Source: Rhodothermus bifroesti (GTDB lineage Bacteria; Bacteroidota; Rhodothermia; Rhodothermales; Rhodothermaceae). From it: a stretch of 64,000 nucleotides of DNA. Positions 11,165 to 29,682 of the stretch are shown here, piece after piece; within the stretch, counting starts at the first letter, position 1, and every line of letters starts with the position of its first letter. The translations under genes and the position numbers were made by a program. Where the stretch lies: positions 248,001-312,000 of the forward strand of contig NZ_JAGKTL010000002.1 in NCBI RefSeq assembly GCF_017908595.1. Reading direction: 5' to 3'. A model generated the notes under the pieces. That model saw only the letters and a program-made list of their open reading frames with translations. It had not been told where the DNA came from and ran no database searches.

Positions 11165-11291
11165 AGCTCATCCAGAAGGGTGGAGGGAACAGGCCCTGTG
11201 AAACCCTGGCAACCGCCCTACTGATCGTCGAGAGACGACAGCGGGAAAGGTGCCAATTCCTGCCTCGCGCGACCGCGAGGGGAGATGAGCT
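11165..11291 (+). promoter_or_regulatory. SAM-I (S-box) riboswitch
   Basis: The conserved SAM-I core is readable: P1 arm AGCTCATC (11165-11172) pairs with GATGAGCT (11284-11291). Between them are GGGTGGAGGGAACAGGCCC, TGAAACCCTGGCAACC and GGTGCCAATTCCTGCC. These match the S-box consensus (GGUGGAGGGA, GGCCC, GAA-CCC-GGCAACC, GGUGC-AA-UCC). It lies about 150 bases before metY, the expected context, and is followed by a strong intrinsic terminator. High SAM should therefore shut off metY-metX-aspartate kinase-asd. Confidence 0.95.
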
Positions 11292-11327: not shown

Positions 11328-12776
<1,449 letters not shown>

Positions 12777-25497: not shown

Positions 25498-26331
25498 ATG
25501 TTGCGACCGGGTCGGCCTCGGCATGAGCAGCTCAGCGATTGGCTGCGCGAGCAGATCGAAAAGGGGCGCTATAAGCCTGACGATCGCCTGCCCTCGGAGC
25601 ATGAGCTAAGCGAACGCTTCGGCGTAAGCCGCATCACAGTACGCCGCGCGCTTCAGACCTTGGAGCACGAAGGCCTCATCTATCGTCGCCAAGGGTTAGG
25701 CTCGTTCGTGCAGAATCCCAAAATTCACCAAGGGTTGGTGCGTCTGACTGACTTTGCCGAAGACATGGCGCGGGCAGGACTGCAAGCACGCTCAGAAATT
25801 CTGCATTTTGCTCCTGAACCGGCTTCGGCCGAAATTGCCGCCCAGCTGGAAATCCCTGTAGGACAGCTTGTTGTGCGCCTGGACCGGAGGCGGCTGGGCA
25901 ACGAAGAGCCCATCGCCTTTGACCGCACGTGGATGTCACCTTTTTATGCCCAGTTTCTTGAAGGGCGTAAGCTGGAGCAGGAGACGATTTACGGAATTTT
26001 GGAGTCGCTGGATATTCCTGTGGTGCGTGGTCGCTATCGGATCGAGGCAGTAAATGCGGATGCGGAAGTGGCCCGCTATCTTGAGGTCATGCCTGCCACG
26101 GCTCTGCTGCGTATCGACCGGGTTTCGTACACTGTAGGGGGGAAGGTGGTCTATTATCAGCAGCGGTTTTACCGCAGCGACCGGGTAGCCTACGAACTGG
26201 TGCTTGAGCGCGACAGCCGGCGTCGCATTCCAACAACCGAAGGAATGCCGCTACGGGAGTTTGAGCCGGTGTTTCGCAAAGGACAAACTGCACGCGCCGA
26301 CCCATCGGCTGCCTCCAATAGCCGGCATTGA
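25498..26331 (+). CDS. GntR-family transcription regulator, UTRA (HutC/FarR) subfamily
   Basis: A 277-residue repressor-type regulator. An N-terminal winged helix-turn-helix ([42 protein letters not shown]; key parts LPSEHEL and [10 protein letters not shown]) is followed by a UTRA ligand-binding domain that begins at [23 protein letters not shown] proteins usually sense sugars or small metabolites; the ligand cannot be predicted. ATG 25498 is preceded by AAAAAGG with a 6-base spacer, which decides it over the upstream ATG at 25474. It faces away from ndk and is 53 bases before moaA. Confidence 0.9.
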
Positions 26332-26384
26332 ACTTAATAATAAGGCGTGCGGTATGCACGCCACATGGGTTGACAAAGACGGTC

Positions 26385-27473
26385 ATGTTGGTGCCACTGC
26401 CTGTACTTTCTGGCGCACCTGAGCGCACCGTTGATCCGGCCCAAGTGCCGGAGGACTTTGGCTTGACGTATGATCCAGCGCGGGCAGCAACCGAGGTGCT
26501 TACCGATGGTTTCGGACGGCGCCACACCTATCTGCGCATCTCGCTCATTGAGCATTGCAACCTGCGCTGCCGCTATTGCATGCCAGAGGAAGGACTGACG
26601 TGGACGCCACCCGAGCACCTGCTTACAGACGAAGAAATCATTCGCCTAGCCCGGTTGTTTGTGGCACAGGGAGTGACCAAAATTCGGCTGACAGGTGGGG
26701 AGCCTCTGCTGCGTAAGGGTATTGAGCACATTGTGGCCAAACTAGCCCGCTTGCCTGGCCTAAAAACCATTGCCATGACCACTAACGGGCTGCTTCTTGC
26801 AAAAAAGCTCGATCGCCTCAAAGCGGCTGGTCTCACGCAACTGAATATCAGCCTGGATACCCTACGGCCTGATCGCTTTGAGATCCTAACGCGCCGCAAG
26901 GGATTGGCCCAGGTGCTTGAGGCGATTGATTTGGCGCTTGCCCATGGCTACCGTCCTCTCAAGGTGAATTGTGTGGTCCTGCGCGGGTTTAACGACGACG
27001 AGTTGCTCGATTTTGCAGCCTGGACGAAAGACCGGCCTGTTGAGGTGCGGTTTATTGAGTTTATGCCTTTTGATGGCAACGGTTGGAGCGCTGGACAACT
27101 GGTTTCGGCGGCTGAAATGCGCGCCCGAATCGAAGCCCACTATTCGCTTAAGCCTTTGCGGGTTGATCCGAATGGCACAGCGCGGCTGTTTCAGATCCCC
27201 GGCCATCAAGGATGGCTAGGGTTCATCGCGTCGATGACTGAGCCGTTTTGCGAAGGCTGTAATCGGCTCCGCATCACGGCCGATGGCAGTTTAAAGGTCT
27301 GTCTCTTTGGGCAGGCTGAGGTGAGCTTGCGGGATGCCTTGCGCCAAGGTGCAACCGATGCGGAACTCTTAGCCTTAATTAGTGCAGCTATCGGGCGTAA
27401 GCATGCCCGTCATGCCGGAATGCACCACCTCGCACAGAGGAAAAATCGACCAATGATCACCATTGGCGGTTGA
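26385..27473 (+). CDS. moaA: GTP 3',8-cyclase (molybdenum cofactor biosynthesis)
   Basis: Radical-SAM enzyme for the first step of molybdopterin synthesis. The 362-residue protein has the SAM cluster CNLRCRYC (Cys58, Cys62, Cys65), [10 protein letters not shown], and the C-terminal second-cluster motif [21 protein letters not shown] (key cysteines C, C and C). It ends in the conserved Gly-Gly needed for activity. The chosen ATG at 26385 gives about 40 residues before the core, somewhat longer than usual. Other moa/moe genes are not in this window. A terminator overlaps its last codons. Confidence 0.95.
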
Positions 27474-27486
27474 TTTTTTTGTTTTT
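27450..27486 (+). terminator. Terminator at the end of moaA
   Basis: Stem CCAATG / CATTGG (27450-27466), extendable by AATC/GATT on the outside, followed by TTGATTTTTTTGTTTTTC. It overlaps the last moaA codons. Confidence 0.7.
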
Positions 27487-27505
27487 CTCTGAACACTTAA
27501 ATTTT

Positions 27506-27568
27506 CTGATGTTTGGTCGATCCCCCTAAAAGCTAGGAACAGTTTCTGCAACCAAGCATCAGGGGGAT
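27506..27568 (+). promoter_or_regulatory. Possible H-type pseudoknot leader (unknown cis element)
   Basis: Stem 1: CTGATGTTTGG (27506-27516) pairs with CCAAGCATCAG (27552-27562), 11 bp with one T-G pair. Stem 2: ATCCCC (27520-27525) pairs with GGGGAT (27563-27568), 6 bp, extendable to 8 at the expense of stem 1. Stem 2's left arm lies in the loop of stem 1 and its right arm directly follows stem 1, the order of an H-type pseudoknot with a 3-base first loop and a 26-base loop. The right arm of stem 2 covers the G-rich stretch and the first two bases of the ATG of the next gene. It begins 20 bases after the moaA terminator. I do not recognise it as a known riboswitch class. Confidence 0.5.
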
Positions 27569-27905
27569 GGCACGTTCAGATACGTCTGCGCCGAAGCATG
27601 CCCATTTGGAGCGGCATGGGTCAACGCAGGAGGTAAAGCGTTACTGGTATCACATCCAGTTTAGCGAAGAGGATGTGCGAAGAGGTCGCGTAGAGGTGTT
27701 TGTACATCGCTTCGAGCGCTTTTACCAGACGCTTGGACGGCCGGAGGGCATGGTGCTTTGTCGCGTACCTGGATCGCACGATTACTACTTCTCTTGTGGG
27801 CCTTTTGAGTACGCCGGGCGCATTTACCGCGAATTTCCAGCCGAACGTCTGGAGCATGCCCCAGAGGGACAGCTGGAAACCGTGTTTATGGCAGGCCATA
27901 AGTAA
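27567..27905 (+). CDS. Small protein of unknown function (112 aa)
   Basis: I do not recognise this gene. It encodes 112 soluble-looking residues with no signal or membrane helix. There is a disordered N-terminus (about 1-22) and a compact region with many aromatics, including YWYHIQFSEEDVRRGRV and GSHDYYFSCGPFEYAGRIY. Two cysteines occur (about 69 and 81). Composition and codon use look like the neighbours, so it is probably real. The ATG at 27567 sits directly against an AGGGGG stretch, too close for normal ribosome binding, and both are inside the proposed pseudoknot. It is flanked downstream by a strong palindrome. Confidence 0.65.
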   Translation: MARSDTSAPKHAHLERHGSTQEVKRYWYHIQFSEEDVRRGRVEVFVHRFERFYQTLGRPEGMVLCRVPGSHDYYFSCGPFEYAGRIYREFPAERLEHAPEGQLETVFMAGHK

Positions 27906-27913
27906 CCCTTCTT

Positions 27914-27942
27914 GGTTTGGCGCAAATGCTTTGCGCCAAACC
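27914..27942. repeat. Perfect 13-bp inverted repeat
   Basis: GGTTTGGCGCAAA and TTTGCGCCAAACC are separated by TGC. There is no T-run directly after on either strand (a T7 run lies 27 bases on, at about 27969). It may be a terminator without a tail, an mRNA-stabilising hairpin or a protein-binding site. Confidence 0.7.
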
Positions 27943-28005
27943 GTCGTGTAATTGCGTACGTTGGGTGCTGTTTTTTTAGGTTCGAGTCCATAACAGCACC
28001 TGACC

Positions 28006-29682
28006 ATGCACCGAAGGCTATTTTGGCTGAGCTTTTGGCTTTGGGCAGCGTCGGCAACAGCGCAGTCGTTTTATGTAGAGCGCTCTGACCCAGCATCTGG
28101 CACGGCTGCGGTAGCACGGGAAGCTGTAGTGCGGTTCGTTTTTAACGATGCTGTTTCGCAGCAGACCGACTTTAATACAGCGTTTCTGTTTATTCCGCAG
28201 CGGGCTGTGCGCGTGCGCCGCGTGGACCTTATTCCAGAGACGCCAAGTCGTACCAATTGCCCCTCGGTAGGTACAGGACAGGTTTGCCCCAATCAAGTCC
28301 TGTACACGATTACGCACGAGCCTGAGGTGGACTATACATGGCTTGTTTTTGCGGTGCGCAATGCCCGCGGCCGTGCTATGACGAGGCCCTATGTGCTGCG
28401 CTATACCACGGCCACCGCGATGGGCACGTTACACCTTTCTGGTATGGTGGAAGTGGTGGGCGCTAAGCGTATGGGGTTGTCTGAGGCGGAGGCGCGCACG
28501 CTTCGCTTGCTTTTGGATCAAGCAATCGCGACGGGTCTGGGCCGTCCGGTGTTTGAACGCGAAGCCCTTGTCCCACAGGCGGAAAGTGACTTCACGGTTG
28601 TGTTTTTATTACGCCACTTCTCGCAGACCATTGCGGCTTGGGATGTAGCGGCAGCTACCGTACTTGTTGGACACACAGGAGCTTATAAGGTTGATTACCT
28701 GCGGCCGGGTACCTACTGGCCTGTAGCAGTGCGCTATCGCAGTTTGGCCCAGCTTGAAATCGAGGCCTTAGGTTACTACGACGCCGATGGCGATGGCATG
28801 CCCGACCCCATAACCCTGCAAGATGCAGTTTCTGACGTTAGGCTGCATGTGTATCCCTTTAGGCTGGCTACAGCCCGTGAGCAACTTCCGCTGGCGCGCG
28901 AGGCAGCCGCAGCTGTAGCCAGCGATGCGTATCTCATCGGCTTAATGGCTACCAACAGCCCTCAGCGATCTGGGAAGGCGTATAGCTGGATTTACACGTT
29001 CTTTTCACCTGCTCAGGCAAAGCGCCTGCAAGTTCGGGTTGATCCCTTAGGGATCGTTGTGTCTGAGTATCGTGAAGAAGCGCTTGCGTACCTGCCACCG
29101 GTGCCTGAACCGTTTATTGATAGTGATAGGGCACTGGACCACCTTCTTGCGAGGGGGATGCAGGTGCTGGCTGACTCCATTCAAAAGGACCCTACCTTCG
29201 GATTGATCTTTGATCCCAACACGCCGACACGCAACCTGGTTGTGCATCTTGTGGGCGGTGGTTATTACACTAATCGCGTGCCTTCGTCGGATTCCAGTTA
29301 CTGGCAGGTTCGGCTGACCGTTTTTACCGCGACCCAGACGCGCACCTACGAAGGACTAATTAACATGACGACAGGAAAGGTACGGGTGCTTACCAATGCG
29401 GAAGGTACTGCATTGGTTGGTGAAGCGCCGCAGCTATGGGTTTATCCCAATCCTTTGGGGTCGCATGCTACCTTTCGGGTGTATTTGCCTCAGGCGGGCT
29501 TTGTGCGGCTTAAGGTGTACGATGTGCTGGGGCGTGAGGTAGCATGCCTCTACGAAGAGGCCTGGCTTTTGCCGGGTGTTTATGAAAGCGTGTGGCATGC
29601 ACCTGGCTTAGCCAACGGTCTGTACTTGGCCGTACTTCAATATGGCCCTATCCGGAAGACATACCGGATGATTAAAAGATAA
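28006..29682 (+). CDS. Secreted protein with T9SS-type C-terminal sorting domain
   Basis: A 558-residue exported protein. It starts with a signal peptide (MHRRLFWLSFWLWAASATAQ). Next is an Ig-like domain (FYVERSDPASGTAAVAREAVVRFVF; key start RSDPASG) and a calcium-binding-like YYDADGDGMPDP (about 258-269). The C-terminal region begins LWVYPNPLGSHATFRVYL and continues LKVYDVLGREVACL and LANGLYLAVLQ, the pattern of type A T9SS sorting domains (YPNP, GR-V, G-Y). The passenger domain between has no function I recognise. Expected to be secreted across the outer membrane and surface-attached. Confidence 0.78.
   Translation: MHRRLFWLSFWLWAASATAQSFYVERSDPASGTAAVAREAVVRFVFNDAVSQQTDFNTAFLFIPQRAVRVRRVDLIPETPSRTNCPSVGTGQVCPNQVLYTITHEPEVDYTWLVFAVRNARGRAMTRPYVLRYTTATAMGTLHLSGMVEVVGAKRMGLSEAEARTLRLLLDQAIATGLGRPVFEREALVPQAESDFTVVFLLRHFSQTIAAWDVAAATVLVGHTGAYKVDYLRPGTYWPVAVRYRSLAQLEIEALGYYDADGDGMPDPITLQDAVSDVRLHVYPFRLATAREQLPLAREAAAAVASDAYLIGLMATNSPQRSGKAYSWIYTFFSPAQAKRLQVRVDPLGIVVSEYREEALAYLPPVPEPFIDSDRALDHLLARGMQVLADSIQKDPTFGLIFDPNTPTRNLVVHLVGGGYYTNRVPSSDSSYWQVRLTVFTATQTRTYEGLINMTTGKVRVLTNAEGTALVGEAPQLWVYPNPLGSHATFRVYLPQAGFVRLKVYDVLGREVACLYEEAWLLPGVYESVWHAPGLANGLYLAVLQYGPIRKTYRMIKR

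Follow-up and report, generated by a model that had tools for sequence, protein, structure and literature searches.

How is the start of translation controlled in a small gene of Rhodothermus bifroesti whose leader can be drawn with two overlapping RNA stems? The gene, here called X, lies in a window of 64,000 nucleotides, which is the whole stretch of DNA that was analysed. A preliminary description of this DNA joined the two stems into an H-type pseudoknot, and compared it to translation-level riboswitches or autoregulatory mRNA sites. Seven Rhodothermus leaders were aligned, from the window's genome and six relatives. Stem 1, which is strong in the single genome, fails once the relatives are included; the less conspicuous stem 2 survives.

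Layout of the leader

Both stems are present in the sequence, with coordinates and pairings as first described (Table 1). Stem 1 has 11 base pairs, including one G-U pair; made one pair longer, it reaches 12 nt at 92% complementarity. The arms of stem 2 are 8 nt long and 100% complementary. Stem 2 covers the G-run that abuts the ATG at 27567 and ends on the AT of that codon (27567-27568), so the statement that the second stem hides both is borne out. In the window's species the G-run directly adjoins the start codon, a spacing shorter than usual. The AG at 27561-27562 is common to both stems. Because of this, the full 11 bp of stem 1 leave only 6 bp to stem 2.

Table 1. Positions of the leader elements and neighbouring genes in the window.
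Feature	Position	Strand	Remark
moaA, upstream neighbour	26328..27473	+	conserved order moaA-X
Terminator-like inverted repeat over the moaA 3' end (weak)	27441..27478	+	scan and inverted-repeat match
Conserved upstream block TTAAATTTT, possible -10 region	27497..27505	+	TTAARTTCGGCGC in the other six; putative promoter role
Stem 1 left arm CTGATGTTTGG	27506..27516	+	pairing present in the window's genome only
Conserved 5' arm GGTCGATCCCCCT	27515..27527	+	GGYCGATCCCCC in 7/7 genomes
Stem 2 5' arm ATCCCCCT	27520-27527	+	partner of AGGGGGAT, 27561-27568
Apical loop	27528..27560	+	length 28-33 nt in the genus; sequence also variable
Stem 1 right arm CCAAGCATCAG	27552..27562	+	overlaps stem 2 by AG
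Stem 2 3' arm AGGGGGAT: G-run ribosome-binding site and first two start-codon bases	27561..27568	+	pairing kept in 7/7 genomes
Gene X, 112 aa	27567..27905	+	conserved in Rhodothermus; sporadic distant relatives in other Bacteroidota
Downstream neighbour with T9SS sorting tail	28006..29682	+	same order in 5/6 relatives

Conservation of stem 2

Stem 2 is kept in all seven Rhodothermus genomes, each time over the G-run before an X gene of 110-114 aa. The GGYCGATCCCCC block and the pre-start G-run occur in every leader, and the loop between them differs. Eleven of the 12 columns of the 5' arm are invariant, the remaining one being C or T. Only one or two of about 33 loop columns are invariant, depending on the alignment, and the arm-to-arm span ranges from 42 to 48. 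Judged from the alignment, the 5' arm is under strong constraint and the loop is not.

The register of the helix can be examined by sliding one strand. As aligned, 54 of 63 cells hold standard pairs; moving the partner by one or two positions lowers this to 32-45. Six pairs, five C-G and one U-A, are invariant. At the position that closes the loop, the window's genome and G005 have U-A, four genomes have C-G, and G001 has a broken C-A. An RNAalifold consensus includes stem 2, with one pair changed on both sides. Since most pairs, those of the C-run with the G-run, never vary, covariation support is limited to this one pair, among seven related genomes that form about five clusters. Comparison of the leaders thus indicates a conserved helix, with true covariation resting on one pair. 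A helix that pairs the ribosome-binding site and is kept in the homologues, here 7/7, is the mark of a leader hairpin that sequesters the Shine-Dalgarno (SD) sequence.

Predicted folding

In nested folding, which does not allow pseudoknots, stem 2 is predicted at 94-100% between 37 and 80 C, whichever of six assumed transcript starts is used. A longer piece, of about 27501-27607, is an exception: at 65 C it folds best into stem 1, and the G-run pairs mostly elsewhere. The balance between the stems therefore depends on the length folded. RNAalifold also gives an alternative in six genomes, that of the window not among them, in which an upstream TTCGGC forms a small hairpin with GYCGA of the conserved arm.

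Occlusion of the start was compared with 224 SD-bearing open reading frames sampled from 464 kb of the window's genome, using the most paired 6-nt stretch before each start. On this rough yardstick, for which the start codons of the sample were picked by a simple rule, each of the seven X leaders falls within the lowest 0.4-4.9% at 65 C. At 37 C the X leaders rank at 0-14%, and some other sampled genes are equally strongly paired.

Proposed translational control of X

The leader can best be understood, with a probability of roughly 0.6, as a Rhodothermus-specific hairpin over the ribosome-binding site that permits translation of X only when it is open. The 5' arm, GGYCGAUCCCCC, would pair with the G-rich ribosome-binding site and with bases up to or into the start codon. 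Ribosomes would start on X only when the hairpin is open, and the hairpin would thereby lower translation of X. How often it opens may be set by a trans-acting factor or by ribosome competition; such a factor would most likely be an RNA-binding protein, perhaps X itself, although a small RNA is also conceivable.

The X leader looks like an ordinary kind of off-switch for protein production. As in known SD-sequestering repressor hairpins, the helix covers the ribosome-binding site and the start directly before one gene. The X leader differs from these in being without a known regulator, ligand or member gene, and in having no family in Rfam 15. A search of positions 27440-27640 against that library gave no hit at gathering score and a single chance match, to SNORD113 (E 1.5), in keeping with the earlier remark that the class is not a recognised one. 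Part of the comparison with riboswitches and autoregulatory sites also stands, namely a conserved leader acting in cis that hides the ribosome-binding site of X. The riboswitch part is not supported: a metabolite riboswitch has a conserved aptamer core, and with almost no conserved loop positions no such core is visible here.

Should the proposed control be correct, one conserved site of translational control would be gained for a thermophilic genus, together with a handle on an unnamed protein family, that of X.

The upstream region and a possible DNA element

The hairpin is most likely a translational brake, and the main rival is an operator in the DNA. The 5' arm could be conserved as DNA: GGYCGATCCCCC, lying close to where transcription starts, would form an operator or promoter-proximal site for a transcription factor together with its inverted copy, and RNA pairing would be a by-product. 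The arm does lie a few bases after the conserved TTAARTTCGGCGC block, a candidate -10 region, and the two arms are near-perfect inverted repeats, the longest of them (9 bp) in G005. However, the spacing of the arms differs by 6 bases among the leaders, so that helical phasing is broken. The second arm doubles as the ribosome-binding site, and at the loop-closing pair both arms change jointly, neither of which favours a site read as DNA. A DNA element is for these reasons considered unlikely, although it deserves to be kept in mind.

Reading TTAARTT as a -10 region has a consequence for the RNA as well. Transcription would then start some 7 bases after it, near 27508-27512, so that the TTCGGC arm and part of the left arm of stem 1 would lie outside the RNA. 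A scan for sigma-70-like promoters found none before X; the two tRNA genes of the window carry TTGACA/TAnnnT-like promoters. As a possible regulon signal, CTTAARTTCGGCG has its exact match before X only. No published transcript-start or small-RNA map for Rhodothermus was found in the literature searched.

The unit had also been said to begin just after a terminator, which finds little backing. The terminator-like hairpin at 27450-27466 overlaps the end of moaA. The scan gives 2 such sites in the region as against 1.5 in shuffles, and the T-run of the hairpin is not kept in the relatives.

Temperature and mRNA stability

Two further readings keep the hairpin and change its purpose. Rhodothermus is a thermophilic host, which counts for an RNA thermometer: the helix would melt at some temperature in the growth range, and heat would switch X on. 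Simple thermometers typically combine a variable loop with a helix that covers the ribosome-binding site, and a hairpin at this place is shared with the ROSE and fourU thermometers. The X leader differs from those in lacking a weak, imperfect helix: it has seven to nine mostly G-C pairs and is predicted to stay closed up to 75-80 C. Six of the seven leaders have a predicted opening of no more than about 4% at temperatures up to 75 C, and in the window's genome stem 2 is still at least 94% formed at 80 C; nearest-neighbour energies at 75-80 C are extrapolations. On these predictions, control by melting is highly improbable.

Alternatively, the main role of a 5' hairpin may be to stabilise the mRNA against decay, reduced translation being incidental. 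The hairpin would indeed be close to the 5' end if the RNA starts where the -10-like block suggests. A stabilising hairpin, however, need not cover the ribosome-binding site, as the X hairpin does in 7/7 genomes, and this explanation is given equally little weight.

Stem 1 and the pseudoknot

To test stem 1, the 28 nt that precede the C-run were matched to the loop in each genome, and the score of the best pairing was set against those from 500 shuffled loops. In the window's genome, none of the 500 shuffles is as good, and the pairing has an energy of -19.0 kcal/mol against a mean of -9.9. In all six relatives the pairing is at chance level, with 177 to 461 of 500 shuffles as good. Among the seven genomes examined, stem 1 thus appears private to the window's species. 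The preliminary description had staked its proposal on homologous leaders keeping the pairings; they lack those of stem 1 and keep those of stem 2 in 7/7. An H-type pseudoknot needs two interlocking stems that are both kept in homologues, and with stem 1 absent in 6/6 relatives the pseudoknot is not conserved and is refuted for the genus.

Geometry raises a second difficulty. The loops of 3 and 26 nt had been taken as sterically sensible, with the adjacent right arms allowing the stems to stack. In an H-type pseudoknot, the strand joining the right arm of stem 1 to that of stem 2 must cross stem 1. With the right arms adjacent, that strand has 0 nt for the 11 bp of stem 1, far short of a connecting loop long enough to cross. 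Stacking of the stems at this junction would leave the 3-nt loop to span about 17 bp. From general H-type geometry, the pseudoknot as drawn is sterically implausible, the full stems being incompatible; stem 2 could form alongside a stem 1 shortened to about 5-6 bp.

A pseudoknot riboswitch or autoregulatory pseudoknot is therefore the least probable of the explanations, despite the strength of stem 1 against shuffles in one genome, as it has neither a conserved loop nor an Rfam match. The 11-bp stem is better seen as an extra that arose on top of the hairpin in the window's species and lies outside the conserved design. There it may compete with the stem 2 hairpin or modulate it.

The left arm of stem 1 has one more possible partner. 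Positions 27507-27521, which contain this arm and GGTCGAT, are 87% complementary over 15 nt to 27445-27459 in the tail of moaA, so that a read-through transcript could pair there.

Gene X and its neighbours

Each of the six other Rhodothermus genomes examined carries X, at 65-69% identity and with moaA upstream. The closest whole-genome relatives of the window's genome belong to one genus, and two named records that carry X are Rhodothermus sp. In other Bacteroidota (G312, G489, G492 and G485) there are scattered distant relatives, 94-99 aa long.

The protein has no family in Pfam or NCBIfam. Its matches in PHROG (E 0.19) and among PDB sequences (one, E 0.088) are at chance level, and plasmid records gave no match. 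A predicted model has a mean pLDDT of 76 and a poor N-terminus. Its fold is a ferredoxin-like arrangement (best Z 6.6), which is common among many unrelated proteins; comparison with viral proteins gave no match of note. The N-terminus is rich in arginine and lysine in most relatives, the sole feature tying X to RNA binding.

One can imagine translation of X being controlled through binding of X, or of another small protein, to the GGYCGAUCCCCC/G-run hairpin, in which case X may be a new RNA-binding family of Bacteroidota. This narrower proposal is quite unlikely. A comparable case is the rpsO pseudoknot of E. coli, where a small protein gene has a structured site overlapping its own start codon; the possible pseudoknot-like stem adds to the likeness in the window's genome only. 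The difference is that X is no ribosomal protein in the libraries searched, and that the pseudoknot of the X leader is not conserved.

Several observations concern the surroundings of X. A perfect 13-bp hairpin at 27914-27942 follows directly after its stop codon, without a T-run; the relatives keep TTTGCGCCA only. At 27964-28000, GGTGCTGTT ... GGTTCGAGTCC ... AACAGCACC resembles the acceptor and T arms of a deleted tRNA gene, a remnant not seen at the same place in the spacers of the relatives. In three genomes of one Bacteroidota genus, a hydrophobic open reading frame of 33-35 aa (MKNCGVAVLDRIMTFLSVLYSLILLSTLIILLS) lies just before a distant relative of X (L051 1359-1466, and the same place in L050 and L052).

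Distribution of the leader

A pattern that includes the G-run has a single site in each Rhodothermus genome, located before X, with one additional, looser chance match in G004. A covariance model searched over 114 genomes of the order recovers the seven leaders, with E values of 2.5e-12 to 5.6e-23. The same model gave a best E of 0.055 outside Rhodothermus and nothing below 0.05, which is not convincing. Literature searches found nothing on the X leader.

Two other candidates were rejected. Pattern matches in G012 and G018 were considered as further genes with this leader, but their surroundings are unrelated and they appear to fall within coding sequence; they are attributed to chance. An upstream reading frame in the loop, coupled to X, was set aside as its arrangement is inconsistent among genomes: its stop overlaps the start codon in G004, it is frameshifted in G001 and in frame with X in G005, and it is without an ATG start in G000, G002, G003 and G006.

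Two further elements lie elsewhere. A palindromic repeat, TCCCCCTnnnAGGGGGAGCTGnCnCGAAGnGnCTGAGGGGGTC, has many copies in the G005, G001 and G004 genomes. Its pattern gives 41 matches in G005, nearly all of this form, and two in G000, neither of which is. Within the window, a SAM-I riboswitch (Rfam RF00162, 91.5 bits) lies at 11165-11291, before an open reading frame at 11442.
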